Both the position numbers and the translations under genes were made by a program. Under the pieces are notes generated by a model. It ran no database searches, was not told where the DNA came from, and saw only the letters and a list, made by a program, of their open reading frames with translations. This document shows, piece after piece, positions 1-27,251 of a DNA stretch of 30,796 nucleotides (the first letter of the stretch is position 1; every line of letters starts with the position of its first letter). Source of the DNA: a virus; the IMG/VR virus record IMGVR_UViG_3300025468_000010, positions 1 to 30,796 of that record; one strand, given 5' to 3'.

Positions 1-545
1 CCACCCAATGATAGTGATCCATTGGCATATGCGACGGCATATTCATTTGTGTCAACACTGTCATCGCCTGTTGTGCCATCTGCTGTTAGCATTGCAGAAC
101 CGGTGAATCCACCCATATTTGGTGATGTATATAGCATTGTGTTATTATTACGGGCTTGGCTTGTAACAGTTGCACTATTGCCTTCGAAAATATCAACCGC
201 GCCACCGATCACTTTAGTTAAATTCTTCTGTCGTCCCATTGTGATAGTACCAGCATTGGAACTAATCCCAACTTTAGCATCACGAGTAGTTGCGGCATTA
301 CCACCCTCAGAGTCTATATTTAATGAAATGTCACCAAATGCAGATAATCCATTGCCTAAGTCCTCGGTTGCTTTAAAACCTACGTATGTATCACCGTTTG
401 TTATATCTTTGGAATTAGTTGTTCCATTGTCTGTTATTGTTAATGCTTGTTCAGTTGAACCATAAACTGTTATATCTGCTGATGCTTGTTCAGCACCACC
501 CATCAATGCCATGCTACCGATTGCTACTGTTAAAAATCTTTTCAT
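1..545 (-). CDS. Gram-negative porin, 3' end cut by window edge
   Basis: The first 181 residues of an outer-membrane beta-barrel porin, open to the left edge. A Sec signal peptide (MKRFLTVAIGSMAL... ending EQASA, about residues 1-23) precedes a mature start DITVYGS. The mature part has typical general-porin strands: TYVGFKATEDLGNGLSAF, then AKVGISSNAGTITMGRQKN, and later MLYTSPNMGGFTGSAML. The pattern GFK.(S/T)EDLGNGL followed by G...MGRQ is characteristic of trimeric proteobacterial porins. The start has a clear Shine-Dalgarno (ATAGGAGAAAGT-ATG). A CTAAATA element at 603-609 might be a variant late promoter. Lambdoid prophages are known to carry porin genes that replace host porins. Here a role in altering the envelope of the infected cell (nutrient uptake or exclusion of other phages) is inference. 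The missing C-terminus should end in an aromatic residue if the barrel is intact. Confidence 0.85.
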   Translation of the reverse strand, partial: MKRFLTVAIGSMALMGGAEQASADITVYGSTEQALTITDNGTTNSKDITNGDTYVGFKATEDLGNGLSAFGDISLNIDSEGGNAATTRDAKVGISSNAGTITMGRQKNLTKVIGGAVDIFEGNSATVTSQARNNNTMLYTSPNMGGFTGSAMLTADGTTGDDSVDTNEYAVAYANGSLSLG

Positions 546-695: not shown

Positions 696-2186
696 TTAAA
701 ATATACCTTGATCACGAAGTTGTGCCATGTTCTGTTCATGTTTTGATAACTTTTTGCGATCTGCTAGTTTTTTCTTGTGTGCTGCTTTTGCTTTGGTATA
801 TGAATCACCGCTAAACATATTCTTCACATCTTGTCCGAATTTGTTTAAATGTCCGCCTGCTTTTTTAACTTTGTCATTGTACGACTTTGTTTTTGCTTCT
901 TGCCTTTTGCGGTTAGTAGCACCCTGCGTTGTTTCAGGTCGCTTTTCGCCCCATTGTACATTTGGTTTACCAGTATATGGATTCAGTTGGGTTTTTCTAC
1001 CTTTTGAATCATATGATTTAGGATTTCTTGCTTTGTCCTGTGCTGTTTGCCGTTGATGCCATGAATCGCCTTCTTTACCATATCCTTTGGCTGTTACTTG
1101 ATCGACTGCCCTGTTTATATGCCCACCTGCCTTTTTAACTTCGTCTTTGTAAGCCTTTGATTTTGCTTCTTGTCTGCGACGGTTTGTAGCACCTTGTTTT
1201 GTTTCAGGTCGTTTTTCACCCCATTGCACATTTGGTTTACCAGTATATGGATTCAGTTGGGTTTTTCTACCTTTTAAATCATATGAGTTAGGATTTCTTG
1301 CTTTATCCTGTGCTGTTTGCCGTTGATGCCATGAATCGCCTTCTTTGCCATAACCTTTAGCTGTTACTTGATCAACTGCCCTGTTTATATGCCCACCTGC
1401 CTTTTTAACTTCGTCTTTGTCGCTTGTTTCTTTATGACGAAGTTTATTTACTTCGGCGTTGTAAAGGCTGTCATCCTCCCACCATGCTTCATCTAATTGA
1501 TCCATTTTAGTATCACGGTCTATATCATCACTGAAAAAATCCCACGGTTGCTTTTTTTGATTATCGGGATGCGACCCTGATTTAACCGGATCACCCCATG
1601 TATCACGAACGACCTTGCCATACGAATCATGCCAGTACCAATCTTTGTTATACTCTTCTGGTGCCGAGGTAGGTTCTTTAACACCCGCTAATTTTTTAAT
1701 ATCATCAACTGGGTCAATTTCCATTTCCAAGTCACCGAGCCAACCACCTTTGTATTTGTCTGGGATGTCATCAGGTTCTGGAGTATCTGCCCATCTTGTA
1801 TTGGGACGTTCCCATCTTGTATTTGGCGTTTTATTGTTATTCCATTGATTAACTTCCTTGTCTAGTTCTTGCCCTTTCGGGGAATCTACATGGATAGTAT
1901 TAATTAATGGAAGTTCACCACCGTCGGCCTTAACAGTATCATTGGGTTTATTCCAATCCCACCATGCTTCATCTAGACTAGACGATGGCCCTTTCTCTTT
2001 CTGGGCATTTGGTGTTACATTTGTTTCATAGTCACCCCACATTTTTTGATCTTTCCACGCATTGTATGCATTCCAATCCCCAGCTGGCTTACCTGCGGCT
2101 ACTTGCTCCTTCTCCCACTGTTTGTAGTTAGTCCCACCTTCCTGTAATTTGTTTTCTAATTCTTGTAAATGTTGTGCTAAATCCAT
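696..2186 (-). CDS. Hydrophilic repeat protein, probable late/virion-associated, unknown function
   Basis: A 496-residue protein without membrane segments or signal peptide, rich in W, D, K, G and N. The N-terminal half carries a repeated DEAWW motif (about residues 70 and 232) in an acidic, Trp-rich context. The C-terminal half contains two nearly identical 90-residue repeats, each starting KDEVKKAGGHINRAVDQ and containing WHQRQTAQDKARNP and LNPYTGKPNVQWGEKRPE. A third, degenerate partial copy (KDKVKKAGGHLNK) precedes a basic tail. An ATAAATA late promoter lies 27 nt upstream and an AGGAT Shine-Dalgarno precedes ATG. No family was recognised. Late expression and composition would fit an internal virion or scaffold-like protein, but that is inference. 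Confidence 0.75.
   Translation of the reverse strand: MDLAQHLQELENKLQEGGTNYKQWEKEQVAAGKPAGDWNAYNAWKDQKMWGDYETNVTPNAQKEKGPSSSLDEAWWDWNKPNDTVKADGGELPLINTIHVDSPKGQELDKEVNQWNNNKTPNTRWERPNTRWADTPEPDDIPDKYKGGWLGDLEMEIDPVDDIKKLAGVKEPTSAPEEYNKDWYWHDSYGKVVRDTWGDPVKSGSHPDNQKKQPWDFFSDDIDRDTKMDQLDEAWWEDDSLYNAEVNKLRHKETSDKDEVKKAGGHINRAVDQVTAKGYGKEGDSWHQRQTAQDKARNPNSYDLKGRKTQLNPYTGKPNVQWGEKRPETKQGATNRRRQEAKSKAYKDEVKKAGGHINRAVDQVTAKGYGKEGDSWHQRQTAQDKARNPKSYDSKGRKTQLNPYTGKPNVQWGEKRPETTQGATNRKRQEAKTKSYNDKVKKAGGHLNKFGQDVKNMFSGDSYTKAKAAHKKKLADRKKLSKHEQNMAQLRDQGIF
851..1390. repeat. Two tandem 270-bp coding repeats
   Basis: Two consecutive copies with a 270-bp (90-codon) period lie inside the 696-2186 gene, nearly identical at DNA level; for example TTTGGTTTACCAGTATATGG occurs at 961 and again at 1231. 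A third partial copy begins the C-terminal region. The near identity suggests recent duplication or homogenisation. Confidence 0.85.
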
Positions 2187-2213
2187 AAGTTAAATCCTAA
2201 AGTTGATTATTGT

Positions 2214-2220
2214 TATTTAT
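2214..2220 (-). promoter_or_regulatory. T4-type late promoter (ATAAATA)
   Basis: ATAAATA on the minus strand, 27 nt before the ATG of the repeat protein. It leaves a leader of about 22 nt that contains an AGGAT ribosome site. It is one of a coherent set in this window matching the NATAAATA late motif of T4-like cyanophages. Confidence 0.6.
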
Positions 2221-2221
2221 G

Positions 2222-2671
2222 TTATTTTGAATAGTATGTATTCCATAACTCTAATACACCTGCTTCTTTTCTGCTTTCTTCTTTGTTACCACCAGTGTAT
2301 GGTATTGCTAATTTCTCTTCCATTAATATTTGGTTCACTGATATGTTGCCGCTATTATATTTTATGGTAGTTTCGGTTATCATATCTGCTGGAATCAATA
2401 TTTCGCCCAATATTCTGCCGAACTTACCCTTTTTCTGTAATTTAGTGGTAATTATAAATTCTCCTTTGGTGGATTTTAGGATTTTTTTTAATCTATCTTT
2501 AGCTGCCAATCCCCATGACTTTTCTGCTTTATTGCGTGTTCTGCTTTCTGGGGTATCAATTCCCATAAGTCTAACACGTTCTTTGATAAAAATACCAAAT
2601 CCTAGTGAAATTAAGCAATCTAGCGTATCTCCATCAACTACTCTAATTAATTTAGCGGTGTATTGGTACAT
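2222..2671 (-). CDS. Staphylococcal nuclease-like (thermonuclease) protein
   Basis: A 149-residue SNase-fold nuclease that would cleave DNA or RNA phosphodiester bonds with Ca2+. The signature residues are present in order: DGDT with D15, then VRLMGIDTPE with R34, D39 and E42, and GRILG with R86. These match Asp21, Arg35, Asp40, Glu43 and Arg87 of the S. aureus enzyme. It has no signal peptide, so it is predicted to act inside the cell or virion. AAGGA precedes the ATG, and the upstream 57-codon gene ends 2 nt before it, so the two are probably co-translated. A role in host DNA degradation is plausible but not shown. Confidence 0.9.
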   Translation of the reverse strand: MYQYTAKLIRVVDGDTLDCLISLGFGIFIKERVRLMGIDTPESRTRNKAEKSWGLAAKDRLKKILKSTKGEFIITTKLQKKGKFGRILGEILIPADMITETTIKYNSGNISVNQILMEEKLAIPYTGGNKEESRKEAGVLELWNTYYSK

Positions 2672-2673
2672 TC

Positions 2674-2847
2674 TTATTCCTTTATATTGACATCTGCTTC
2701 TTTGTTTAAATCTGTTTTACTACCCATTACTCCAGAATCACCGAGTACCCTGTCTGATGTTATGAATGTTACTTTGTATTCAACCTCATTGAAGAAGAAT
2801 AAATCGCCTATTTTTAGATCTTTGGCTTTAACTGTTTTTTTGGGCAT
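2674..2847 (-). CDS. 57-residue hypothetical protein
   Basis: A small ORF read directly from the sequence. It starts MPKKTVKAKDLKIGDLFFF and ends EADVNIKE. It fills the gap between the spanin-like gene (20-nt overlap) and the nuclease gene (2 nt away), in the same direction. The opening pattern, K..DLKIGD.F.F......V, resembles small beta-barrel domains, but no family can be assigned. Its tight packing and uninterrupted frame are the evidence that it is real. Confidence 0.6.
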   Translation of the reverse strand: MPKKTVKAKDLKIGDLFFFNEVEYKVTFITSDRVLGDSGVMGSKTDLNKEADVNIKE

Positions 2848-3229
2848 TATTCTTATTCTGCACTGCTTCTATAATACCAATAATACTTGCACCAACCATC
2901 CCCATTATCATCATGCTGAAAAAGAACCATAACAAGGTGTTATCTTTTTCATCCTCATTGGTTAGTTCTGTTGGTTTGGTGAATTTTGTGATATGTGGTG
3001 TAGAATTAGGTGGCACACCACGCCCAAACCCGGTTGGTTTCCTATCTGATGGGCTGTTGGGCTGTCTCTTGGTTAAATCCATAACAATCACACTATCTGA
3101 TTGTTCAGTTGCTGATACAACAACAGAACTAGCGGTGCTTGCGGCTGCTGATTTCCATGCGACCGGAGTGCAACCAGATAATATTCCTACTAATACTAGT
3201 ACCCATAAGCTATATGTTACCAATTTCAT
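2828..3229 (-). CDS. Lipoprotein with C-terminal TM: candidate unimolecular spanin
   Basis: A 133-residue protein with a signal sequence ending in a lipobox, ILSGC (Cys20), a hydrophilic middle (about residues 25-98, Ser/Pro/Thr-rich), and a hydrophobic helix at about 99-123 (LLWFFFSMMIMGMVGASII). This N-terminal lipid anchor plus C-terminal transmembrane helix is the architecture of unimolecular spanins such as T1 gp11 (also about 134 residues), which bridge and fuse inner and outer membranes at the last step of lysis. Its ATG overlaps the stop of the holin-like gene (ATGA), consistent with a lysis cassette. It could instead be a generic membrane lipoprotein. The topology is seen; the function is inferred. 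Confidence 0.6.
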   Translation of the reverse strand: MKLVTYSLWVLVLVGILSGCTPVAWKSAAASTASSVVVSATEQSDSVIVMDLTKRQPNSPSDRKPTGFGRGVPPNSTPHITKFTKPTELTNEDEKDNTLLWFFFSMMIMGMVGASIIGIIEAVQNKNNAQKNS

Positions 3230-4021: not shown

Positions 4022-4378
4022 TTATTTATTCCTTATCGGTTTTAACTGTTTGGTATATACACAAGCATCGCATACTTCTAGATGCCACCATTTACCCCAT
4101 TTTAAACCAGGGTTTAACCCATGCCGGATGAGTATTGATGTTACTAATAAAAATGAAAGATCCCATAATACACGGTTGGTATGATGTGTAGGCGGTATTT
4201 CTGTAAATAACCACGGGCTATTATACAATGATGTGAATACCATAAAACATAGCACGAATACAATTTCCCACCTATAAATGCGGTGACGTGTGATAGCCCA
4301 ACATGTACCAACGATTAATATCGTAATTTCCAACAAGGAAATCCACATAAATGTCGCTGTTGCTAATGTGTTGGTCAT
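4022..4378 (-). CDS. Three-TM membrane protein (paralogue pair)
   Basis: A 118-residue protein with hydrophobic helices at about 8-28, 36-52 and 70-86, then a tail with GKWWHLEVCDAC. It is similar in layout and sequence pattern to the downstream 111-residue protein (RVLWDLSFLLV versus RVMVDISFLLI). The ATG overlaps the stop of the coiled-coil gene (ATGA) and has AGGAAG about 7 nt upstream. No enzymatic motif is visible. Confidence 0.6.
   Translation of the reverse strand: MTNTLATATFMWISLLEITILIVGTCWAITRHRIYRWEIVFVLCFMVFTSLYNSPWLFTEIPPTHHTNRVLWDLSFLLVTSILIRHGLNPGLKWGKWWHLEVCDACVYTKQLKPIRNK
4023..4029 (-). promoter_or_regulatory. T4-type late promoter (ATAAATA), leaderless configuration
   Basis: ATAAATA-ATACT-ATG. 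The 5-nt gap would put the T4-type late transcription start on the A of the start codon of the 3682-4017 gene. The element overlaps the 3' end of the upstream gene. Confidence 0.5.
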
Positions 4379-4626
4379 TGTATACTTCCTGTGCTATTCT
4401 GAAGAGTGTATATAATATAGCCTATACCACCTGTAATCAATGCCCAGAAGATACGTTCAAAGTTAGATACACTTAGTGAATTCTGCTGTGCCGTTAAATC
4501 GACATCGTGATCGTGTTTTTTTAAGGCACTAATTTCTTCCTCCACCGTAACCATCTCACGTTGTAGTTGTCCGATGCGTTCTTCTAAGCGAATAACACGT
4601 TCTAATTCTTGTTGATTCAATGCCAT
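4375..4626 (-). CDS. Coiled coil plus C-terminal TM protein (XhlA-like layout)
   Basis: An 83-residue protein starting MALNQQELERV. A heptad-rich helix at about residues 5-40 (RLEERIGQLQREMVTVEEEI) is followed by a single C-terminal membrane helix (IFWALITGGIGYIIYTL). This layout matches haemolysin XhlA-type phage proteins and some holin partners. An in-frame TTG at 4647 would add 7 residues, but AAGGAG sits about 6 nt before the ATG at 4626, so that start is preferred. An ATAAATA element lies 27 nt upstream. It heads the membrane-protein run. Confidence 0.65.
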   Translation of the reverse strand: MALNQQELERVIRLEERIGQLQREMVTVEEEISALKKHDHDVDLTAQQNSLSVSNFERIFWALITGGIGYIIYTLQNSTGSIQ

Positions 4627-4653
4627 GATTACTCCTTCTAAATGCAACTAATG

Positions 4654-4660
4654 TATTTAT
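4654..4660 (-). promoter_or_regulatory. T4-type late promoter (CATAAATA)
   Basis: CATAAATAC on the minus strand, 27 nt before the ATG at 4626, leaving a leader of about 22 nt with AAGGAG. It probably drives the membrane-protein run down to the nuclease. Confidence 0.6.
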
Positions 4661-4693
4661 GGAGGAGTAAGGTATTATTGTGTGTGTATATTA

Positions 4694-6291: not shown

Positions 6292-6615
6292 TTAACCACA
6301 TGCGGCGGGTTTAGGCAATCCAGCAATTTTACAGGCTTGTTTGCCTGGTCCACCTGGAAATAAATCATACATATATGCTGAATTCCCTTTAGCGTTGCCT
6401 AACTGTTTACCAACAGCTTTTATTAATACACGGACTGCTGGTGCAACTTGAAATTCCTCGTAATATTCTCGTAAAAAATTAATAATTTCGTGATGTGTCT
6501 TTGATAGCTCGATATTTTCAATCTTTGCTAATTCAATTGCAATCTCTGGAGTCCAGTCATTTCTGTTAATTAAATACCCGTTTTCATCCACACTAATGTC
6601 GTTAAGATGCATCAT
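6292..6615 (-). CDS. dsrC: DsrC sulfur-carrier protein (two-cysteine type)
   Basis: A 107-residue DsrC/TusE-family protein. DsrC carries sulfur as a persulfide or trisulfide on C-terminal cysteines and is the partner of reverse dissimilatory sulfite reductase in sulfur-oxidising bacteria. Recognised segments are DENGYL, NDW, HHEIINFLREYYEEFQVAPAV, KAVGKQLG..KGNS, LFPGGPGKQACKIAGLPKP and a CG end. Both functional cysteines are present, Cys95 and the penultimate Cys106, with ten residues between them as in Allochromatium DsrC (Cys100/Cys111). TusE proteins that act only in tRNA thiolation usually lack the first. GGAG precedes MM; the second Met is an alternative start. A late promoter lies at 6643-6649. 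Phages of SUP05 bacteria are known to carry dsrC as an auxiliary gene. Confidence 0.95.
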   Translation of the reverse strand: MMHLNDISVDENGYLINRNDWTPEIAIELAKIENIELSKTHHEIINFLREYYEEFQVAPAVRVLIKAVGKQLGNAKGNSAYMYDLFPGGPGKQACKIAGLPKPAACG

Positions 6616-6642
6616 ATTAGTAACTCCGCTGTCTACTAAGTC

Positions 6643-6649
6643 TATTTAT
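6643..6649 (-). promoter_or_regulatory. T4-type late promoter (CATAAATA) of dsrC
   Basis: CATAAATAG on the minus strand, 27 nt before the dsrC ATG, giving a leader of about 22 nt with GGAG. The spacing is identical to that at 2214 and 4654. Confidence 0.6.
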
Positions 6650-6663
6650 GGTGATATTCCGTA

Positions 6664-6704
6664 TAAATTAAAACCCCATCATCCTAAAAATAGAATAATG
6701 GGGT
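6664..6704 (-). terminator. Hairpin terminator after the 67-residue exported protein
   Basis: On the minus strand an ACCCCAT...ATGGGGT stem (6698-6704 with 6673-6679), extended by imperfect pairs around a CTATTTTTAG loop, is followed directly by TTTTAATTT. It separates the early exported-protein gene from the late dsrC promoter. Confidence 0.65.
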
Positions 6705-6745
6705 CAAAATATTAACTCTTTGTGAATTATGATCTTTTGATTGTT

Positions 6746-7077: not shown

Positions 7078-7428
7078 TTATTTAGATGCAGTTGGGTATG
7101 TTGGTGCAATGCCGTAGTACTGTTGTGAAGGTTGATTTTCGGTGCGAATATCGGTTGTCCCGTTCATATGAACGTTCTCGGCTGCATCTAGGTTAGCTTC
7201 CATTGTGGTAGAACCTTTGCCAGAAGCATTGATTGACATACTAAAATTACCTTCTGCATCAGCAGTACCTTTGCTAGTACCGCGTCCACGCCCATTAAAA
7301 ATTCCATCAGCAGTGCCTGTGCCATAACCAGACTGGTTGTTATCTGAACCACCAAAGAATGCATTGGCTGATCCCATTGATAGTGTAGCGATTGTTGCTG
7401 CGATTAAAGTTTTGTTTAAAGTTCTCAT
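7078..7428 (-). CDS. Small exported Gly/Ser-rich protein, sulfur-globule-protein-like
   Basis: A 116-residue protein with a Sec signal peptide (MRTLNKTLIAATIATL... ending GSANA, cut before FFGGSDN). The mature part is Gly/Ser/Thr/Asn-rich: GYGTGTADGIFNGRGRG, then AEGNFSMSINASGKG, and a tail with QQYYGIAPTYPT. It has no Cys. The ANA-(F/W)(F/W)GG start, the D(G)xF/NFSMS segment and the YYG.AP tail recall sulfur-globule family proteins of sulfur-oxidising gammaproteobacteria, which coat periplasmic sulfur granules. That assignment is by resemblance only. AGGAG precedes the ATG. A consensus early promoter lies about 100 nt upstream. Confidence 0.5.
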   Translation of the reverse strand: MRTLNKTLIAATIATLSMGSANAFFGGSDNNQSGYGTGTADGIFNGRGRGTSKGTADAEGNFSMSINASGKGSTTMEANLDAAENVHMNGTTDIRTENQPSQQYYGIAPTYPTASK

Positions 7429-9883: not shown

Positions 9884-10707
9884 TTTGCTGTCACGGTAGA
9901 TAAGTGGTCAAGTATATAAGCAGTATCTTCTTTGGTCGGACATTGACCACATAAAGCAGATGGTTTGCCAAAGTTATTTAGAAATGGGACAATATCATCG
10001 GTTGGTGATACCCCATTATCTATATAATCTTCCCATTCATCTATGTTTGGATTATTAAATCTTGCCAATGTATCTTTTAATAACCCAGCAGTGCTACATT
10101 TGTATATCTTTCCATTGTATAACAATGGGCAAGTTTGTTGGCAACAAATATCATATGCTTTGATTGGGACAGAGTGAAAGGGCATCATATCTTCGTATGC
10201 GTTTTGAAATGATTTTGTAAATGTTGTTGGGTAATTGACCTGAAAACGAACATTATTGTCTGTTTTCCATCTAGCGATGCCAAATTCGGTAACTACTTCC
10301 CATTTATATTGGTTGAATATATTTTTAATACCAAGTTTGGTTCTACTATCGTTAGTGTGTGCCGTTATCTTGAATACTATATTGCCTATATCAAGCATAG
10401 TTTTCATTATATCAGGATGTTTGTGTAATAATAACCCATTTGTAGTAAATCTAAGTTGGCTGCTTGGCATTAGTTCTCTGATACCATATAGCCAATCATA
10501 TACTTCTGGGTTTATTAACGGTTCACCCCCCATAATACCGAAATCAGGTATATCAACTACATTTAACCATTTTGCAATATCTTGTTTACCATCTTCCCAT
10601 TTAACATACCCTTTATGATTTAGATCAGAGTAGTTAGTACATCCTTCACATGATAGATTACATACCTGTGTGATCATTGTTTCTAAAAATGGTATAGTGG
10701 GTTTCAT
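9880..10707 (-). CDS. Radical SAM enzyme with SPASM-like C-terminal cysteines
   Basis: A 275-residue protein. CNLSCEGC near the start (Cys16, Cys20, Cys23) is the CX3CX2C site for the [4Fe-4S] cluster that cleaves S-adenosylmethionine. GIMGGEPLINPEV is the GGE SAM-binding segment, and LRFTTNGLLL is the next strand. The C-terminal third has further cysteines (DICCQQTCPLLYNGKIYKC and CGQCP), as in SPASM/Twitch auxiliary-cluster enzymes that modify peptides or sugars. It is coupled to the glycosyltransferase-like gene through a 4-nt overlap and divergent from another glycosyltransferase-like gene 18 nt away. The substrate is unknown. No convincing Shine-Dalgarno was seen. Confidence 0.85.
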   Translation of the reverse strand: MKPTIPFLETMITQVCNLSCEGCTNYSDLNHKGYVKWEDGKQDIAKWLNVVDIPDFGIMGGEPLINPEVYDWLYGIRELMPSSQLRFTTNGLLLHKHPDIMKTMLDIGNIVFKITAHTNDSRTKLGIKNIFNQYKWEVVTEFGIARWKTDNNVRFQVNYPTTFTKSFQNAYEDMMPFHSVPIKAYDICCQQTCPLLYNGKIYKCSTAGLLKDTLARFNNPNIDEWEDYIDNGVSPTDDIVPFLNNFGKPSALCGQCPTKEDTAYILDHLSTVTAK

Positions 10708-10725
10708 TTAGGGTTAAATATCGAT

Positions 10726-11694
10726 ATGCAATATGATAGATTAAAAGATGAGAATAATGTCATAGAATTTGATGTGTTAGTTGATGAAATTTTGTTAGAT
10801 TTGATACCCAATGAATATCAGTATATATCCTCGGTATTGTATAGACCACTTGAAAATAATAAATGGGTCGTTAAGTTACCAAAATCATCGCATGATATAG
10901 TTATTGTATTTACCCAGGATTTCGTTAATGTGGACAATAACATTTCACCAGAGTTAGAATACATCGATGAGTTCTACAATGATGTGAGTACCGTGGTTGT
11001 GATACATTGGAATCATAATTTGAATAGGGTATATAATGGGAGATTGAAGCTAATAGAATTCCCTGCACATAGCTTTGAGTTTGTTCAGCAACTCATCAAT
11101 AACTATAGCCGGTGGAATGGTAATAGCACACGGGTAAACCCATATATGTGCTTGAATGGTATACCAAAGGCACATCGGAAACTTGTGTATTCATATTTAA
11201 GGTCGTCTGCGAATGGTATTTTGACATTGAATGGTATAACTAACACAGAGTTGTTATCATACAACCAGTATGATTGGGATAATGTGAGTAATTTTATAGC
11301 ATTGAAGGATATTTACTTTTCAACCCCGGTTAATATAATAACTGAAAGTTTGTACAATGAATCATCTGGAATTATATCTGAAAAATCATTAATGGCATTT
11401 GCTAGTTTACAATTGCCAATTTTTATAGCACATAATGGTATTATTCAAGATGTAAAAAATTATGGGTTTGATACATTTGACGACATTTTAGATAATAGTT
11501 ATGATACATTGCCGAATGATATTAGATGGCAAGAAGCACTAGATCGTAATAAGCATATATTGAATGGGGATTATGATTATGGCAACTTATTGCATAGATT
11601 ACAGAATAACCAACATCATTTACTAGATAACTATCTGAATTTGTTAGAAGATAGATTGATTACCCAACTAACAGCGATTTTAGGTAAGCATTAA
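10726..11694 (+). CDS. Glycosyltransferase-like protein, second copy of the family
   Basis: A 322-residue plus-strand protein. Its C-terminal region aligns by eye with that of the 8696-9883 product: ITESLYNESSGIISEKSLMA, then FASLQLPIFIAHNG, then VKNYGFDTFDDILDNSYD. The N-terminal half is diverged. It is transcribed away from the radical SAM gene, and its last 35 bp overlap the convergent 11660-12031 gene. No clear promoter is seen; a TTAAATA at 10714-10720 is only a weak late-motif variant. Enzyme class is inferred from the shared pattern. Confidence 0.55.
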   Translation: MQYDRLKDENNVIEFDVLVDEILLDLIPNEYQYISSVLYRPLENNKWVVKLPKSSHDIVIVFTQDFVNVDNNISPELEYIDEFYNDVSTVVVIHWNHNLNRVYNGRLKLIEFPAHSFEFVQQLINNYSRWNGNSTRVNPYMCLNGIPKAHRKLVYSYLRSSANGILTLNGITNTELLSYNQYDWDNVSNFIALKDIYFSTPVNIITESLYNESSGIISEKSLMAFASLQLPIFIAHNGIIQDVKNYGFDTFDDILDNSYDTLPNDIRWQEALDRNKHILNGDYDYGNLLHRLQNNQHHLLDNYLNLLEDRLITQLTAILGKH

Positions 11695-12031
11695 AATCAC
11701 CATATAGATTAATAATGGTAGCTTCTTTGCACCCAAATAGGTCGATGTGCTGTGATTTTTGGTTCATATTTGATATAAAGTATGGACAAGACATTTTCCT
11801 ATCTAGCACTAGCAATGTTTTTAGTTTTGAGATGCCAATGGCATTGAATTGGTAAGATTTATATTCAAGATCACATAATACTTTATTGCCAATGCTAGTT
11901 AAACGTAGTCCTCCATGTGAGTTGATCCACCATTTCCTCAATGCCGTTCTGAGATCATAATCATCAGTGCATGCGTTGATCATCTCTTCGGTTATTGCTA
12001 ATTTCTTATTCCGAAAAGATTGTTTCGTCAT
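11660..12031 (-). CDS. Conserved phage hypothetical protein (123 aa)
   Basis: Contains LRKWWINSHGGLRLTSIGNKV, later LDRKMSCPYFI, and LFGCKEATIINLYGDFNAYL. From memory this layout resembles a protein common near replication genes in T4-like cyanophages, function unknown. Its start overlaps the end of the preceding gene by 26 nt and has no obvious Shine-Dalgarno, so translation is probably coupled. The 3' end overlaps the convergent plus-strand gene by 35 bp. Confidence 0.65.
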   Translation of the reverse strand: MTKQSFRNKKLAITEEMINACTDDYDLRTALRKWWINSHGGLRLTSIGNKVLCDLEYKSYQFNAIGISKLKTLLVLDRKMSCPYFISNMNQKSQHIDLFGCKEATIINLYGDFNAYLKSLLVG

Positions 12032-12293
12032 GTGATAGTTTAACTACTGTGAATTTAGTAGTACCAAATTGTTTGTTGAGTTTTTTTGCCAAATTTATGG
12101 CATGCCCACTATTAGAAAAAGATACCTTCTTATATTTTGGTATAGAATATGCCATTGAATTAATAACTTTTATATTAATTGGTTTTGCATCATAGTATAC
12201 AGCCACTATACTTTCTGCTTCTAAAACTTGCGTGGAATGATATGTTTCTGTGTTTGTGTATTCTGATATTATTGTTGGGGATGGTCTACTCAT
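12006..12293 (-). CDS. Conserved phage hypothetical protein (95 aa)
   Basis: Starts MSRPSPTIISEYTNTETYHS, then QVLEAESIVAVYYDAKPINIK and PKYKKVSFSNSGHAINLAKKLNK. The VSFSNSGHA.NLAKKLN segment is one I recall from small conserved T4-like cyanophage proteins of unknown function. It belongs to the exonuclease operon. The upstream sequence CTAAATATATAT-ATG is AT-rich with no Shine-Dalgarno. Confidence 0.65.
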   Translation of the reverse strand: MSRPSPTIISEYTNTETYHSTQVLEAESIVAVYYDAKPINIKVINSMAYSIPKYKKVSFSNSGHAINLAKKLNKQFGTTKFTVVKLSHDETIFSE

Positions 12294-12318
12294 ATATATA
12301 TTTAGTTAATATATATTT

Positions 12319-12540
12319 TCACCATTCACCCCCACTTATCTCTGTATTTGTTTGGGTATCGGTATCATCTTGATTTTGAAGGGCATATATAGTTGATAAT
12401 AATTTTGTAATATCACGGTGCAGGTTCTTAGCTTCATTAAGTGGTATTATGAAATCTTTGCTGTTTTTTGATTCAAAGAACTTTATTTTATCAATGAAAT
12501 TATGAATATGGATCACGTTTGAATGGTCCGTGGTATTCAT
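12319..12540 (-). CDS. Small hypothetical protein (73 aa)
   Basis: MNTTDHSNVIHIHNFIDKIKF..., then LNEAKNLHRDITKLLSTIYAL, a probable amphipathic helix, and an acidic Asp/Thr-rich tail. It overlaps the preceding gene by 41 nt in another frame. It is supported mainly by position in a dense operon and helical composition. No family recognised. Confidence 0.5.
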   Translation of the reverse strand: MNTTDHSNVIHIHNFIDKIKFFESKNSKDFIIPLNEAKNLHRDITKLLSTIYALQNQDDTDTQTNTEISGGEW

Positions 12541-12925
12541 TGCGTCGTAAGATGATTAGTTTGGGGCAATATACTATATCCCACTTGCCATTTAGGTTAA
12601 TATTGTAATACCCAGCGGCATACCAACATTTGCTATCGCCGGCTTTTGTGTACAGGGGTAACTGGTCATTCATATCCCATACAGAATTATGAACTTCTCC
12701 GTGTGCTGGATAATCATGTACTGCTACTGGACTACATTTTGTCGCATTTACATCGACGAATTTGATATTCGTTTTTTCTTTAAGACTTTGTAACGTATCA
12801 AAATAAGCAGTTTTTTCATCTACTTTAATTGAATATCCTTTTTGTTCGGCATTGATTGTACCAATCTTCTTATTATTTTCGCATATTACCCAAAATTTAT
12901 CTGATACTGTTTTTGCTTCAATCAT
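12500..12925 (-). CDS. Conserved phage hypothetical protein (141 aa)
   Basis: The first part (FWVICENNKKIGTINAEQKG) looks like a small beta-rich domain. The second contains HDYPAHGEVHNSVWDMNDQL, LYTKAGDSKCWYAAGYYNI and YCPKLIILRRNEYHGPFK. The Trp/Tyr/Cys/His pattern is distinctive and resembles a cyanophage conserved protein of unknown function. It overlaps the end of the exonuclease gene by 8 nt, which supports co-expression. Confidence 0.65.
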   Translation of the reverse strand: MIEAKTVSDKFWVICENNKKIGTINAEQKGYSIKVDEKTAYFDTLQSLKEKTNIKFVDVNATKCSPVAVHDYPAHGEVHNSVWDMNDQLPLYTKAGDSKCWYAAGYYNINLNGKWDIVYCPKLIILRRNEYHGPFKRDPYS

Positions 12926-13931
12926 TAATTAGTTCTCCGTTGTATGTGGCATTTAGCCATTGACTAGCTTGTTCTGGAAATTCTGCTAGTTTATTTAGTT
13001 CATGTTTTGCACAAAATTTTATAAACTTGAATCCGATAGTTGGGGAATTAAGGTTAACATTATTAAGTACAGTTTCTATAATAGATAGATCTATTGAATC
13101 TTTTATGTATTGTGGTTGTCTGGTTAAATCAATTAACCCATTGTTTCGTTCATAGTCATCTTTAACTCGGTGGTCATTGTTATCATGGTCAGACCAATGT
13201 TGCAGCATTAAATTGTTCCAAGCATACCCTTTTTTATCTTTATCTTTAAATGCTTCTAATAACCCGATGCGTTTTGATGTTCCTTTTGTTCTAACACCTG
13301 GATAGGCACTGAATATATTATCCGATGTATCGCCCCTGATAGATTTTTCAAACAAGATCCATTTTGGATCAGGGAGTAATTTTGGCAAATTAGTTTTCTT
13401 ATCTATAATAGGGCGATTTTTATCGTCAAAGTATCCGTTAAGGGTTATTAGTTGGTCTGAAATACCGTTGTATTGAACAACATTTTCTGTGATGAGTTGA
13501 TAAAAATCACTATCACTGCTTAGAATCACATGCTTGTCATGTGTGTGAAGGCTAATCCATCTGGCAATTATGTCATCTGCTTCAGCCTGTGAGTTTTGAA
13601 GTACTGTGCAATTAGTACTATCTTGCAAGTATTTAGCAAATTCCTCAAAAACTTCCCAAAACAGCTTATCTTCTGCCAATTCTTCATCTGTTAGTTTAGC
13701 TAATTTTGCTTTTCTATTTTTCTTATACGGTTCATAAACATCTTTTCGCCAACTTCTACCTTCTAGGCAAAATACTATATGATCTGACTTTAGAATTCGT
13801 TGCGCTTTATTAATAGAACTGAACATCAGGTGCAAACAGAACCCTAGTTTAGTGAATGCATCTGTGCCTATATGAACAGAATGTTTGGCACGGAAGAATA
13901 AATTCGCAGTATCAACTAGTAAATATTTCAT
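12918..13931 (-). CDS. rnh: 5'-3' exonuclease / T4 RNase H-like flap nuclease
   Basis: A 337-residue member of the FEN/T4 RNase H family, which removes RNA primers and 5' flaps during lagging-strand synthesis. Acidic metal ligands occur in the expected order: LLVDTANLFFRA (Asp7), HIVFCLEG.SWRK, NSQAEADDIIARW, VILSSDSDFYQL and SIRGDTSDNIFSAYPGV. The last runs into the helix-three-turn-helix DNA-binding element (KRIGLLEAF). T4 RNase H is 305 residues, so the length fits. It has a strong early promoter, TTGACT-N17-TATAAT. The -10 ends 6 nt before the ATG, so the mRNA is probably leaderless. It leads an operon of four small genes. Confidence 0.9.
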   Translation of the reverse strand: MKYLLVDTANLFFRAKHSVHIGTDAFTKLGFCLHLMFSSINKAQRILKSDHIVFCLEGRSWRKDVYEPYKKNRKAKLAKLTDEELAEDKLFWEVFEEFAKYLQDSTNCTVLQNSQAEADDIIARWISLHTHDKHVILSSDSDFYQLITENVVQYNGISDQLITLNGYFDDKNRPIIDKKTNLPKLLPDPKWILFEKSIRGDTSDNIFSAYPGVRTKGTSKRIGLLEAFKDKDKKGYAWNNLMLQHWSDHDNNDHRVKDDYERNNGLIDLTRQPQYIKDSIDLSIIETVLNNVNLNSPTIGFKFIKFCAKHELNKLAEFPEQASQWLNATYNGELIND

Positions 13932-13937
13932 TGGTGT

Positions 13938-13966
13938 ATTATAATAGATTTATATAACAAAGTCAA
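13938..13966 (-). promoter_or_regulatory. Sigma70 promoter of the exonuclease operon
   Basis: TTGACT (13961-13966), a 17-nt spacer and TATAAT (13938-13943) on the minus strand. The predicted start is at about 13931, the first base of the start codon. It overlaps the divergent late promoter at 13966-13972. Confidence 0.8.
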
Positions 13967-13972
13967 TAAATA
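13966..13972 (+). promoter_or_regulatory. T4-type late promoter (ATAAATA), divergent
   Basis: ATAAATA on the plus strand followed by AG-ATG-ATG. T4-type initiation about 6 nt past the element would start exactly on the second ATG (13978). It touches the -35 of the oppositely directed exonuclease promoter. Confidence 0.5.
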
Positions 13973-13974
13973 AG

Positions 13975-14436
13975 ATGATGAGAGATTGGAATAAAAGTAT
14001 AGCGGATGTAGGTGAAATAGTATACGAGTACACTGGTGACATAAACCCATTCATTAGGTCATTGAAGGTAATTCATTTCCCCCTTCAAATGCTCGGTCCA
14101 GCGGAAGAAAGCGATATGTATCAGTTAGTATATGATGTTGGACCTATTATACCTGATATATATAAGTGGCATTCCGACCCCACCCAATTATTGTGGTTGG
14201 ATAAAAAGGATAAGTTACACTGGTTAAGTGATGAGATGTCTATGGTGCGGGAGGATTATGCTGTGGTGGGACCGCAGGCGGTGGATGAGTATGTAGGTGG
14301 TTTTGTGTATCCCCCCGTGAGGGCATTAATGCCCCGCATAGCACCTGAACTAGGTGGATCTGTGTACTGGAGCATCGAGGATTTCCAATATAGCGATGAC
14401 GGTATTGTATACACTTCTATGGTAGATTATGGATGA
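13975..14436 (+). CDS. Hypothetical late protein (153 aa)
   Basis: Starts MMRDWNKSIADVGEIVYEY, then VIHFPLQMLGPAEESDMYQL, WHSDPTQLLWLDKKDKLHWL and PAVRALMPRIAPELGG-type sequence, ending EDFQYSDDGIVYTSMVDYG. It is soluble, with no signal or membrane helix and no recognised domain. Translation may begin at the second ATG (13978), which coincides with the predicted late start. It opens the plus-strand late cluster ahead of the repeat genes. Confidence 0.65.
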   Translation: MMRDWNKSIADVGEIVYEYTGDINPFIRSLKVIHFPLQMLGPAEESDMYQLVYDVGPIIPDIYKWHSDPTQLLWLDKKDKLHWLSDEMSMVREDYAVVGPQAVDEYVGGFVYPPVRALMPRIAPELGGSVYWSIEDFQYSDDGIVYTSMVDYG

Positions 14437-14474
14437 TTGGAACAGCGACAGTTCAAAGATAGCACGCATATGCC

Positions 14475-14481
14475 ATAAATA
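14475..14481 (+). promoter_or_regulatory. T4-type late promoter (CATAAATA) of the repeat-gene cluster
   Basis: CATAAATA-CTAGAAT-ATG on the plus strand. The 7-nt gap is the same as at 3662 and would give a leader of about 2 nt for the gene at 14489. Confidence 0.55.
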
Positions 14482-14488
14482 CTAGAAT

Positions 14489-14986
14489 ATGATTGATTTA
14501 TACAGCAACCACACGAATCCAGAGACATTGCATGGGTATAAAGATAGGTTTAAAATCCCAGGATTCGCATATGAAGAAGCAAAACGAACAGGTAACTGGA
14601 CAGAAGCAGAACCATATATAATGAAAGATCCATCTTCTGTATTTCTGTATGCTAGGTGGGTAATAGGAGACAGATGGTCAGAAGCCGAACCTTACATCAT
14701 GAAAGATCCATATTATGCATTTCTGTATGCTAGAGATGTAATAGAAGGCAGATGGAAAGAAGCCGAGCCATATATAATGAAAGATCCATCTTCTGCATTT
14801 CTGTATGCTAGGGGGGTAATAGGAGACAGATGGTCAGAAGCCGAGCCATATATAATGAAAGACCCAGAATATGCATATTGGTATGCTAGGGGGGTAATAG
14901 GAGACAGATGGTCAGAAGCTGAACCTTACATCATGAAAGATCCATCTTCTGCATATAACTACAAAGAATTCATAAGGGCACTATAA
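14489..14986 (+). CDS. EAEPYIMKDP-repeat protein 1
   Basis: A 165-residue protein with a unique N-terminal cap (SNHTNPETLHGYKDRFKIP), five repeats built on W.EAEPYIMKDP..A..YAR.VI.(G/D)R with a 26-residue period, and a C-terminal cap (YNYKEFIRAL). Regular helix-forming repeats suggest an alpha-solenoid interaction protein. Such repeats are, as I recall, common in marine phage proteins without known function. Its stop overlaps the ATG of the next gene (TAATG), so the three paralogues are probably translationally coupled. A late promoter lies just upstream and no Shine-Dalgarno is seen. Confidence 0.75.
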   Translation: MIDLYSNHTNPETLHGYKDRFKIPGFAYEEAKRTGNWTEAEPYIMKDPSSVFLYARWVIGDRWSEAEPYIMKDPYYAFLYARDVIEGRWKEAEPYIMKDPSSAFLYARGVIGDRWSEAEPYIMKDPEYAYWYARGVIGDRWSEAEPYIMKDPSSAYNYKEFIRAL

Positions 14987-15860
14987 TGATGAATTTATAC
15001 GAATATCACACAAATCCAGAGACATTATATGGCTATAAAGATAGGTTTAAAATCCCATTATTCGCATGGGAAGAAGCAGAACGAACAGGTAACTGGACAG
15101 AAGCAGAACCATATATAATGAAAGACCCAGAATCTGCATATTGGTATGCTAGGGGGGTAATAGGAGACAGATGGTCAGAAGCCGAACCTTACATCATGAA
15201 AGATCCATATTATGCATTTCTGTATGCTAGAGATGTAATAGAAGGCAGATGGAAAGAAGCAGAACCTTACATCATGAAAGATCCATATTATGCATTTCTG
15301 TATGCTAGAGATGTAATAGAAGGCAGATGGAAAGAAGCCGAGCCATATATAATGAAAGATCCATCTTCTGCATTTCTGTATGCTAGGTGGGTAATAGGAG
15401 ACAGATGGACAGAAGCCGAACCATATATAATGAAGAATCCATTTTCTGCATATAACTACAAAGAATTCATAAGGGCACTATAATGATGAATTTATACGAA
15501 TATCACACAAATCCAGAGACATTGCATGGGTATAAAGATAGGTTTAAAATCCCAGGATTCGCATATGAAGAAGCAAAACGAACAGGTAACTGGACAGAAG
15601 CCGAACCATATATAATGAAAGATCCTACATATGCATATCTGTATGCTAGGGATATAAGAAAAAAAGGAAGATGGCCAGAAGCCGAACCATATATAATGAA
15701 AGATCCATATTCTGCATATTGGTATGCTAGATATGTAATAGAAGGCAGATTTCCAGAAGCAGAACCATATATAATGAAAGACCCAGAATATGCATATATG
15801 TATGCTAGGGATATAAGAAAAAAAGGAAGATGGTCAGAAGCAGAACCAGCGATTGCTACA
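14600..15860 (+). repeat. Array of 78-bp coding repeats across three genes
   Basis: Fifteen or so copies of a 26-codon unit (EAEPYIMKDP + YAR + VI/GRW) run through three adjacent genes. Individual units differ by few bases and some are repeated verbatim between genes, as are the caps (for example TACAAAGAATTCATAAGGGC near 14960 and 15459). This indicates recent duplication and gene conversion. Confidence 0.85.
14986..15483 (+). CDS. EAEPYIMKDP-repeat protein 2
   Basis: The same length (165 residues) and architecture as the preceding gene: cap YHTNPETLYGYKDRFKIP, five 26-residue repeats, cap YNYKEFIRAL. Two consecutive repeats (KDPYYAFLYARDVIEGRW) are identical, evidence of very recent unit duplication. 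It starts at the overlapping TAATG; a second ATG directly follows. Binding partner and role unknown. Confidence 0.75.
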   Translation: MMNLYEYHTNPETLYGYKDRFKIPLFAWEEAERTGNWTEAEPYIMKDPESAYWYARGVIGDRWSEAEPYIMKDPYYAFLYARDVIEGRWKEAEPYIMKDPYYAFLYARDVIEGRWKEAEPYIMKDPSSAFLYARWVIGDRWTEAEPYIMKNPFSAYNYKEFIRAL

Positions 15861-16115
15861 TCGCATGTGGTTATTCGGTATGCCAATGATGTGATCAATG
15901 ATGATGTAACCCACGGGTTCAAGAAACGATGGAAAGAAGCTGAACCATACATACTACGCGATGCGCAGAAATCAGCATTGTATGCAATTATGCTTAATAC
16001 CCCCTGGGAGGAAGCAGAACCGATCATACGAACATCCAACTATTGGTGGGGTAGGTACGAAAGTATGGTTGAAGATAGTAATCACACCAGCATTGATGAA
16101 CTAGAAGTAGCGTAA
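15483..16115 (+). CDS. EAEPYIMKDP-repeat protein 3, longer and diverged C-terminus
   Basis: A 210-residue protein. It has the same N-terminal cap, then units of 26-27 residues (including YARDIRKKGRW variants). Its last units are eroded (SEAEPAIATSHVV, KEAEPYILRDAQKSA, EEAEPIIRTSNYWW), and it ends in a new tail, TSIDELEVA. It keeps the EAEP core six times. It starts at TAATG overlapping gene 2. It ends 3 nt from the convergent SGNH gene, with no terminator visible between them. Confidence 0.75.
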   Translation: MMNLYEYHTNPETLHGYKDRFKIPGFAYEEAKRTGNWTEAEPYIMKDPTYAYLYARDIRKKGRWPEAEPYIMKDPYSAYWYARYVIEGRFPEAEPYIMKDPEYAYMYARDIRKKGRWSEAEPAIATSHVVIRYANDVINDDVTHGFKKRWKEAEPYILRDAQKSALYAIMLNTPWEEAEPIIRTSNYWWGRYESMVEDSNHTSIDELEVA

Positions 16116-16865: not shown

Positions 16866-17530
16866 ATTATTCTATTTTCTGTAATATGATTGATTAGGCA
16901 ATCAGCCCAAATGGTATGTCCAGCTGCATCAAAATGATATTGATCATCTGGAAATGGATGGTGATTATTAACTCTGACAAGATAATCATACATTGTATAA
17001 TCATCGTTGTATGGATGAATATATTCGGCAATATCATTGTCTAGTCCTTCTACTCGATCCAATGCGATGTAGTTATTCCACATAAAAAATTGAATATCGT
17101 GATCATATAACCATTCAATGTAGTTATGAATTTTTGAATTCCATTCGATTGCTTTTTGTGTCATGTAGCCGTGTGTATTATCTACCTTCTCCCGCCATTC
17201 ATTATATCTAGATAGTGCATTGGGTGGAATGTCATTGAGTGAATACTGATCAACATTTACATATTCACCATCAATAAACCATTCTTCTCGTTCCCACGTA
17301 CTCCATCCAATGAATACCATAAGGTCGTCTTGTGGGTCTTGATTGCTTACCCATTCATTTGTTCGTCGTATGATTTGGTCATTGCTTGCACCGAACCTAG
17401 CATGGCATTCAAAATTTAAACCAAAATGATCCATTATCTTGGTAGCAAAATTATCTTTGTCTGGTACATGTCCATCGGCTGTGCTAGCATCTTCTACATT
17501 GCTATCACTCATTATGAAATATTTTTTCAT
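16862..17530 (-). CDS. SGNH hydrolase-like paralogue, altered GDSH motif
   Basis: A 222-residue protein related to the downstream gene. It starts MKKYFIMSDSNVEDAST, where the GDSH motif is replaced by SDSN (Ser kept, His and Gly changed). It has RFGASNDQIIRRTNEW and FIGWSTWEREEW, and a C-terminal YHFDAAGHTIWADCL with Asp and His kept. It may be active with altered specificity or be a non-catalytic partner. The ATG overlaps the stop of the 95-residue gene by 4 nt (ATGA), and it overlaps the next gene the same way, so all are one operon. Confidence 0.65.
   Translation of the reverse strand: MKKYFIMSDSNVEDASTADGHVPDKDNFATKIMDHFGLNFECHARFGASNDQIIRRTNEWVSNQDPQDDLMVFIGWSTWEREEWFIDGEYVNVDQYSLNDIPPNALSRYNEWREKVDNTHGYMTQKAIEWNSKIHNYIEWLYDHDIQFFMWNNYIALDRVEGLDNDIAEYIHPYNDDYTMYDYLVRVNNHHPFPDDQYHFDAAGHTIWADCLINHITENRII
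17261..17311. repeat. 51-bp identical repeat, copy 2
   Basis: Identical to 16542-16592; see that entry. Confidence 0.8.
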
Positions 17531-17814
17531 TTGATCGCTTCTGCTTGTTCGTATGTTTCCATCACTATATTACGGCATATATTTTGAAACCATTGATCAA
17601 CTAATGTAGAGTCATCTTTGCCTTGGTATCCTGCTTTAATTAATCTAGCTACGAATATTTCATTCCAATCTAATTCAAATGCACCGTTGTTTAGGTCCGT
17701 TGGATCAACATCCATTGATATTACTTCAACCCATGGTTCTCCTCGTTCTGATGCTAATTCTTTTGCTGTTTTCAGTTCTTTTTTGTGTTTTCGTTTCTTT
17801 AACCATTCAATCAT
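17527..17814 (-). CDS. Conserved phage hypothetical protein (95 aa)
   Basis: A basic N-terminus (MIEWLKKRKHKKELKTA) is followed by a segment (GAFELDWNEIFVARLIKAGY and STLVDQWFQNICRNIVME) that I recall from T4-like cyanophage proteins of unknown function. AAGGA lies 8 nt before the ATG. It overlaps the nadE end by 8 nt and the next gene by 4 nt. Confidence 0.7.
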   Translation of the reverse strand: MIEWLKKRKHKKELKTAKELASERGEPWVEVISMDVDPTDLNNGAFELDWNEIFVARLIKAGYQGKDDSTLVDQWFQNICRNIVMETYEQAEAIK

Positions 17815-19357: not shown

Positions 19358-22300
19358 TTATTTAAATTGGTAGGTTAAATTAACCCCTGTGTTATAATCT
19401 TCTTTGTCTGCAACTGTGGTTACTGTTACCGATGTGTCATCCGATGTGTATTTCCATCCAATACCAGCAAATATTTCAACTGAATTATTAATGCTAGTAT
19501 CAGTGCTAGTATAGTACATTGACCCATCATTGTCAACGCTTGATGGTACATCCATATTTATTTTTCCAGCAAATGCCGTTGGTTTTATTCCACCATATAG
19601 ATTGACTGCATCGTTATCCCATCCCATGACTGAATATACCGAATGAATAGTATCCACATCATTCACCAACCCAGGGTTATAATCTGTATTTGTATTCATT
19701 ATGCCCAATTGTGTCCAGAACTTGTCTTTGCGCCATACTAGATTAGTATCAACGGTAGATGATCCATTCGTTTCACCCCAAATTCCTGACATTTGAATCC
19801 AAGGACTATTATCAGCTTCGGTATAGCTAATATTTACATCAATATTATTATACCAATTAAAATTATACCCAAATGAATAGTTATTCTCATCACTCATTGC
19901 ATATGTATAGTTGTTATTTGTGATAGCTGTTAAATTGGCATATTTAATACCCCAAGATGCACCGTCGGTGTGTGATAGATGTGCTATATTGCTGTTATTT
20001 TCAGTTACTAATCCCGATAAATCAACCGTAAAATCTCGATCAAAACCATCCACTGCAATTACTGAACTTATTGCGCTTGTATCAATACCATCAAACGAAA
20101 TACCCCCACCAACCGATGTTGTGGCACCTGTTCTGCCTGTGAGACTAATGCCCAAATTGCCAATTGGTCTTGTTGCTTGGTCTAAGTCCATTAACCCTTG
20201 CCCATGTGTATTAGCATTATAGCCATTGATGTTCTTATTCGCAGTCTGTAGTAATACTTGTGCGATATTTTTACCTTGCATGTATGGCCAAAGTTGGTGA
20301 ACTATTGCAACTCCCCCAGCGACAGCAGGGGCAGCCATGCTTGTGCCACTCATGGAAGTATAACCACCACCATTCTGGACGCTATTGATGCTTGTTCCTG
20401 GTGCTAAAATATAAAAATCACTAGTCGCATATGGGTCATTGCATTGGGTAGTATAATCTTTGCATACATGTCCTGATTTAGCACCATCAATTGCTTGTGA
20501 ACTAGTGTTCCAATTGCCAACTACTAGCATCCTGCCATCCATTATAAGATCACCATTCGCATTTACTGCACTTGCAAATGTAGCAGGGTTCTGAACATAT
20601 CCTAAATCATAGTTGCCGGCACTTATTGTTAATACTAACTCACTCGGTAATACATCCCCCCAATCTTGTGGATTCTCTTGGTTGTAATAGTTAGTACCAC
20701 CATAATATACATGGTTATTAGTATAAACACCATTGCCGTGATCGGTTATGCTATTCTTATAATCATTGCTATAATTTGTATTAGCACTGATATTAGCAGC
20801 CACTATATCTTCGTGTTGTTTAGCCCAATCTAGGGCTTGCCTCGCACCAGATAGACTAATGCCATTTTGTTCACCTATCTTAGCAACGGCAATATCAGCA
20901 TCATATGCAATACCATGAGATCCTAACCCATCCTTATTTCCTGCTGCAATGCCAGCTACGTGGCTACCATGACCATTCTCATCTTCATACGGGGTGTCAT
21001 ACCCAGCATCCCATAAGTATTTGATTTTTCCAGTAAATGCTTCGTGATCTTGGTCAATGCCAGTGTCAATAATCATAATAGTTGATCCTTTTCCTGTCCA
21101 TCCCCTTGCATACGCATAGTTGGCATTTACATCAAGTACTGATCCATTGTCTGCCTCTACCGTAGAAAAATCAGCAGGATCATTGCTATTTACTACGGTT
21201 GGTGTCCCCACTGATGGGTTATTATAGTATGTATTATAATCATATGTGGTTGGATCAAAGTCCAATGATGGTGCATTCGGTTGTGTTACCGTTCCGCCAT
21301 TGCTATCAGGGGCTTCTGGCTCACTGGGTGTTGATTCTGGTGCTACCACTCTCGTAGTGACTTCTTCCGATGTTGTGATTTCTTCAGTTACTTGGGTATC
21401 AATAACACCGGTTGTAGTAGAACCATCAGTGTATGAAGTTGCACGAGTAGTTGTTACAGTAGTTGTGATAGTTGTAGTTGTTGTCCAAACATCATAATAG
21501 AACATCCATACACCATCTTCGCGGGTATCTGTATTTTCAATGGTATCAGATAAAACAGGATCACTTATGACCGTAGTAGTTGACGATGAAGTTGAATCTT
21601 CGTAACCAACCACATTTGGTGTTATCGTTTCTGACACCATTTCTTCACGGGTGCTAGTGGTGATACTTTCAGCAATAGCTTCAGAAGTATTAACACCAAC
21701 GATTTCCGTGGTTGTACTGCCATCAGTCCATATCGAAGTTCTAGTAGTAGTAACCGTGGTTGTGGTTGTAATAGGTGTTGTGGTGGTGTCGGTATACACT
21801 GTCCATACTTGTGTTACTGTGCTGCCATTTGCATCTGTGGATGTACGAGTATCAGTTACAGAGGTTGTGGTTGTAGTTGGTGTTCCATTCATTGCTGCAT
21901 CTTCGGAAATGTCTTCGTCACTGGTGCTTACGATGTTAGGAGAAACCGTTGTTGATAGCAGTGATTCATTGGTAGTAGTAGTTACTTGGTCTTCTATAGT
22001 TGATGTTGTCGTGGTGCCAATGACTTCCGATGTAGTAGTGCCATCTGAATGCGTTGTAATCCTCGTAGTTGTAGTTGTAACGGTAGTTGTGATAGGAATA
22101 GTTGTTATGTCAGTGTATATTTTCCATGTTTTGGTAATGGAATTACCATTTACATCGGTTGAGGCACGGGTTTCTTCGGTGGTAGATGATACGGTGGTTG
22201 GTGTTCCTGAAACTAAAGTGACAGCACTGGATGATGTAGTTGTTTCAGTAGGACATTGGGTATTTCGTTCTTCGGTATCAGTGCGGATAAAGTCACCTTT

Positions 22301-27121: not shown

Positions 27122-27246
27122 TTAACACACTCTTCGATAATAGTTGATTCATTTTCATTATATTCTGATTCCCAAATAATTTTAGTTTCGATGCCACGCT
27201 GTTCTTTTAACGTGTCTATTTTTATTTTATCCTTGTTCCAAATGTC
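27094..27246 (-). pseudogene. Remnant of a Vsr-like homing endonuclease C-terminus
   Basis: A 50-codon open frame with no start codon, bounded by TAA at 27247-27249 and TAA at 27094-27096. It reads DIWNKDKIKIDTLKEQRG, then IETKIIWESEYNENES and IIEECVKWLKH. The pattern W..D..K...LK..G......IWE.(E/D)(Y/W) is the C-terminal core of Vsr/EDxHD-type endonucleases found in phages. It fills the gap between the two polymerase fragments and runs 28 nt into the C-intein gene. Vsr-like homing endonuclease genes between split-intein halves are known from marine 'fractured genes'. Here the catalytic N-terminal part is gone. The assignment rests on a short motif. Confidence 0.6.
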
Positions 27247-27251
27247 TTATG

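Follow-up and report, generated by a model that had tools for sequence, protein, structure and literature searches.

The mechanism described for DsrC of Allochromatium vinosum uses two cysteines, Cys100 and Cys111, and the part of that source drawn on here states that, in the absence of DsrAB, the first cysteine is nearly always replaced by A, S or T, apart from certain exceptions that it names (PMC3397948). DsrC-family proteins are also borne by phages: the sections of Kieft et al. 2021 used here report phage DsrC with both cysteines (n = 23) and with only the second cysteine (n = 112), view most copies missing a cysteine as TusE-like, and describe seven dsrC-bearing Myoviridae contigs with a gene order common among them (PMC8190135). 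A further phage-borne type, comprising dsrC_1 of SUP05 phages and the Lauvirus DsrC (Podophage Lau218), is likewise tied to sulfur oxidizers and, according to the corresponding portion of Roux et al. 2014, is without the cysteine pair (PMC4164917). As two-cysteine phage DsrC and myovirus dsrC were reported in 2021, the locus described here is a further example of a kind already known; what is new is the anatomy of its unit, the position of dsrC common to a T4-like lineage and the extent to which this copy has diverged. A literature search, judged by titles and abstract openings and leaving most subscription journals uncovered, returned no separate late promoter for a phage dsrC, nor did we find literature joining Thioglobus, phage, T4-like and dsrC.

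The window, by which we mean the whole stretch of DNA analysed, is a record of a T4-like marine virus with 30,796 nucleotides (IMGVR_UViG_3300025468_000010), which is linear and hence a fragment. The features on which the argument draws are as follows:

6292..6615, minus strand: dsrC, encoding a 107-aa DsrC-family sulfur carrier; a single intact ORF with start at 6615 and end at 6292
6624..6627, minus strand: ribosome-binding site GGAG, 8 nt 5' of the dsrC ATG, read off the sequence
6643..6650, minus strand: CATAAATA, T4-type late-promoter-like, 27 nt 5' of the dsrC ATG; motif search with random-placement control
6672..6705, minus strand: intrinsic-terminator-like hairpin (15 pairs, 5 of them G-C) with a T-rich tail, separating the preceding gene from dsrC
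2214..2221, minus strand: second CATAAATA, 27 nt 5' of ORF 696-2186 (start 2186); motif search
4654..4661, minus strand: third CATAAATA, 27 nt 5' of the ATG at 4626 (ORF 4375-4626); motif search
7078..7428, minus strand: small secreted Gly/Asn-rich protein, a homolog of which precedes dsrC in the viral contigs L089 and L099 (35% and 44% identity)
3-545, minus strand: porin of the Gram-negative type, truncated at the end of the contig (PF13609, 78 bits)

The dsrC of the window is an intact DsrC-family gene, somewhat diverged from bacterial DsrC. The C-terminal arm of its product carries Cys95 and the penultimate Cys106 with ten residues between them, and its score of 148.9 bits against the TIGR03342 profile (TusE/DsrC/DsvC; cut-off 53.5) places it within the family, with 117.9 bits against the TusE equivalog model NF008562 of NCBIfam lying under the cut-off of 191. 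Its top solved relative is the A. vinosum DsrC (PDB 1yx3; phmmer, 148 bits), on which the predicted fold superimposes with a TM of 0.89, compared with 0.84 for the Acinetobacter TusE 7syb; the fold model, derived from an 11-sequence input, is the best of five (pLDDT 89.6), the remaining four standing at 47-53. The A. vinosum protein shares with it the fold, both cysteines, the length of the arm and an undeleted KGNS loop, but has PTGC where the phage protein has PAAC, and further residues conserved in DsrC also differ: 11 of 62 near-invariant columns are altered, including W42H, T65I, Y88G, T104A and G105A, the last two being both residues directly preceding Cys106. TusE of the E. coli type has the TIGR03342 family and the fold in common with it. 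By comparison, the dsrC_1/Lauvirus type, as described in part of its source, lacks one arm cysteine and a stretch of 7-8 residues (PMC4164917), both of which are present here; all six Lauvirus-type rows in our alignment have T or S at the position of Cys95 and are 26-31% identical to the phage protein. The phages of Kieft et al. 2021 resemble the window in their C-x10-C DsrC, myovirus setting and proposed boost to sulfur oxidation; the portion of that paper used here says nothing of dsrC having a late-type promoter and terminator to itself, and the present contig may itself belong to their set (PMC8190135).

An initial annotation of this DNA had claimed, with no strand given, a DsrC with both redox cysteines at this ORF, which is borne out, and had taken the cysteine spacing as the mark of a genuine dissimilatory DsrC and the sequence as nearer to DsrC of sulfur oxidizers than to TusE, claims of which the latter is supported by identity and the former goes too far. 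After two duplicate rows were dropped from the alignment, both cysteines were seen in 49 of 49 DsrC rows from DsrA-matched genomes and in none of the four phage-borne TusE rows, all of which miss Cys95; the pair also occurs in 10 of the 26 rows whose genomes gave no DsrA hit, and the correct spacing is therefore no proof of a dissimilatory DsrC. Identity of the phage protein to the 49 DsrC rows reaches 65.4% (median 59.8%), against a median of 45.6% for the 26 rows without a DsrA hit and at best 48.6% for the phage-borne TusE. In a DsrC-minus-TusE profile score, the 49 DsrC, when held out, ranged from 39.3 to 78.3 and 20 held-out TusE reached no more than 19.5, and the phage protein (+29.6) lies above every one of the latter and below every one of the former. 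The 10 two-cysteine rows without a DsrA hit were excluded from both training sets and scored apart, eight being positive and two negative, and six of them (24.6 to 37.8) fall in the same range as the phage protein; for one of the ten, L182, the label stems from the assembly, since this row lies within a dsr operon that the contig end interrupts. Four viral orthologs, L088, L089, L093 and L099, score firmly as DsrC with these profiles (+51.7 to +54.2). A pattern search seeded with the phage protein gave the nearest bacterial loci (80 of 141 kept), and dsrA was above cut-off in all 21 of their genomes that were tested. By its sequence, then, the protein of the window is on the DsrC side, diverged.

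The phylogeny of DsrC and TusE, named in the initial annotation as a check, points in the same direction in its best trees, with a placement inside TusE nevertheless not rejected. In a 95-row tree, poorly resolved over 110 columns, the protein groups with phage DsrC (support 92/93), and smaller row sets were made on account of the poor resolution. It again joins phage DsrC in a 35-row tree (92/87), in which one bacterial DsrC lies within the group, and in a third tree it groups with phage DsrC and 12 DsrC of the G128 family, a small-genome family with reverse Dsr (95/85); the rows of the smaller sets were hand-picked after the large tree was known, and hence their support is not independent. 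Constraining the protein within TusE gave p-AU values of 0.639 in a first test, 0.0997 with the 35 rows and 0.524 with the third set, none of which is a rejection, and three of the AU runs (one in the first test, two with the third set) reached likelihoods above the free search, implying that the tree searches had not converged. The likelihood also rose in the third set when the protein of the window and the phage rows were forced into one clade.

Two scans together yielded 13 distinct viral contigs with a close relative of this DsrC, and the four orthologs named above (~66-68% identity) are those which group with it. L089 and L099 share with the window a gene order comprising a homolog of ORF 17527-17814, an exonuclease gene, the small secreted protein and dsrC. 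L088 and L093 have few genes in common with the window in the stretch compared, which makes whole-phage kinship less sure in their case, and no DsrC was seen at 80 loci found via the exonuclease of the window, many of these loci being too short to tell. The two closest pairs of viral orthologs gave dN/dS (NG86) of 0.05/0.87 (L093-L099) and 0.09/1.04 (L089-L093), which points to purifying selection on these genes; comparisons of the window's own dsrC with its orthologs are saturated. By profile matches, the window encodes a DNA polymerase and an exonuclease of T4-type families. Among the named phages, the only near DNA match to its positions 1-25000 covered 1% and fell within nadE of Pelagibacter phage HTVC008M. 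Several of the related contigs show further genes around dsrC. In L093 the phage dsrC is directly followed by another DsrC-like protein (10194-10655), which has no cysteine and terminates in KGGY, and then by a PstS-like gene; in L095 a Lauvirus-type DsrC end (GGLPKPTGCV, ~4000) directly precedes a two-cysteine DsrC, giving two kinds of DsrC in tandem; and in L001, the same contig as L088, inspection by eye places dsrC between an ammonium-transporter-like gene (1861-3012), which precedes it, and a PstS-like gene.

Along the minus strand the dsrC unit runs from the terminator-like hairpin (6705-6672) through CATAAATA (6650-6643) and GGAG (6627-6624) to the ATG at 6615. The hairpin is weak evidence alone, as a scan returned one in 1.2 kb against a shuffle mean of 0.8. 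The number of CATAAATA occurrences in the window, four against 5.4 expected, is by itself not above chance, and it is their placement that stands out: three of the four lie exactly 27 nt from a start (2186, 4626 and 6615), whereas three motifs at one gap were obtained in 0 of 20,000 trials with four motifs placed at random, both over all bases and over non-coding bases only. The element that the initial annotation reported as shared with other genes at a 27-nt spacing is thus confirmed. Of these starts 4626 is an internal ATG, the TTG of the longest ORF at 4647 giving a gap of 6, and an automatic start caller that prefers ATG chose 4626 independently. Such a fixed distance from starts is what characterizes T4-type late promoters (NATAAATA near starts), and the late promoter of cyanophage S-PM2 is given as NATAAATA in the part of its source used here (PMC2984593). 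Across 37 related contigs, each 10 kb or longer, the interval 20-34 nt 5' of starts contained CATAAATA 9 times (0.2 expected), GATAAATA 9 times (0.3), TATAAATA 5 times (0.2) and AATAAATA 3 times (0.4). These observations suggest that dsrC would be transcribed late from the CATAAATA site; ATAAATA is absent 27 nt 5' of dsrC in the other dsrC-bearing phages checked, and the suggestion of late timing is consequently for this contig alone. Of the factors gp55, gp33 and gp45, on which T4-type late transcription depends, neither gp55 nor gp33 was identified in the 30.8-kb fragment, which was searched with no dedicated model for either.

With regard to the host, a reverse-Dsr sulfur oxidizer, as also suggested at the outset, is the best-fitting candidate in view of the tree with a reverse-Dsr family and of the 21 dsrA-positive genomes. 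Matches to the DsrC family occur in 59 of the 60 genomes of the G128 family, whose sizes run from roughly 0.9 to 2.8 Mb; GC is 33-41% at 16 of the loci, and G128 itself has a dsr operon; for comparison, a SUP05/Thioglobus member is described with 3.1 Mb and 37.7% GC in the part of its source used here (PMC5581435). These traits probably fit the SUP05/Thioglobus group, and a SUP05-like host of the phage is plausible. Against this, a search of 60 G128-family genomes for the porin gave no match. Naming the host via the porin was tried and abandoned, the top matches (35%) being scattered over the class of G008, where 51 of 274 genomes gave a hit; a pattern search among viral contigs returned no porin match, and the window has no tRNA genes and hence no host link from tRNA. 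A porin homolog adjoins the dsrC of L093 too.

Taken together, we propose, with a probability of about 0.68, that dsrC is an auxiliary metabolic gene of a T4-like phage infecting a sulfur-oxidizing proteobacterium, and that it is expressed late and sustains sulfur oxidation. Under this proposal the CATAAATA site would drive dsrC late in infection, Cys106 of the phage protein would receive persulfide sulfur from the host DsrEFH, and the protein would pass this sulfur to the reverse DsrAB of the host. Sulfite would then be released through a Cys95-Cys106 disulfide, to be reopened by the host DsrMK, and the extra carrier may sustain sulfur oxidation and the supply of ATP during phage assembly. 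The case adds to the known viral sulfur genes a two-cysteine DsrC whose place is conserved within a T4-like lineage and whose signals suggest late timing. Should phages drive sulfur oxidation while they assemble, the turnover of both sulfur and carbon in low-oxygen water would be affected. The case also cautions against labelling a phage DsrC as dissimilatory on the cysteine pair alone.

A phage protein acting as TusE would instead pass sulfur to MnmA for tRNA 2-thiouridine, using only the penultimate cysteine, and its host need not oxidize sulfur. The six two-cysteine homologs that score in the same range, the AU results and the view, in the cited part of Kieft et al. 2021, of most one-cysteine phage copies as TusE-like (PMC8190135) are in keeping with such a role. 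We nevertheless regard it as unlikely, because the score of the phage protein exceeds that of every held-out TusE, its syntenic orthologs in viruses have DsrC-type scores, no tusA, tusB, tusC or tusD is seen near dsrC when the gene listing is read by eye, and Cys95 is kept at a position which, as cited above, is almost always A, S or T without DsrAB (PMC3397948). That the window is chimeric, or bacterial DNA taken for viral, is a reading to which we give hardly any credence: it is a linear fragment for which no second record covering dsrC at near identity was found, but it encodes phage-type polymerase and exonuclease, its gene order up to dsrC recurs in two other viral contigs, a second record matches 10582-14616 at 99.98%, and no dsr operon surrounds its dsrC, unlike the situation in L179 and L182.

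The divergence of this copy invites two related ideas, both of which we rate below a role as TusE. One, which we consider improbable, is that a fast-changing DsrC in a separate late unit has altered its docking to DsrAB or DsrMK through the PTGC to PAAC, W42 and Y88 changes, so that host sulfur oxidation would be re-routed and not merely boosted. The other, slightly more doubtful still, holds that the full cycle is lost, the changes tuning or blocking transfer to DsrAB or DsrMK, with the result that sulfur oxidation in the host is diverted or throttled. The altered near-invariant columns, two of them directly before Cys106, and a terminal branch of 0.81 to 0.88, where the other phage orthologs have 0.04 to 0.17, speak for this last idea, but the protein retains both cysteines, the predicted fold and the arm length, and fast drift in an AT-rich phage accounts for the changes equally well.

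Three other regions of the window deserve mention. On the plus strand, 14489-16115 comprises three tandem ORFs of EAEPYIMKDP-type repeats, the first of which has CATAAATA only 7 nt upstream. On the minus strand, 19358-22549 encodes a lipoprotein-like protein of 1063 aa that includes a protease part (phrog_3677) and for which a 51% identical homolog is present in L247. Also on the minus strand, the T4-type DNA polymerase (26135-29426) is distributed over two ORFs, one with an end resembling the N-terminal half of an intein and the next with a start resembling the C-terminal half (FFANDIAVHN); from the intein halves, read by eye, and the polymerase parts, identified by profile matches, these ORFs probably hold a split intein.
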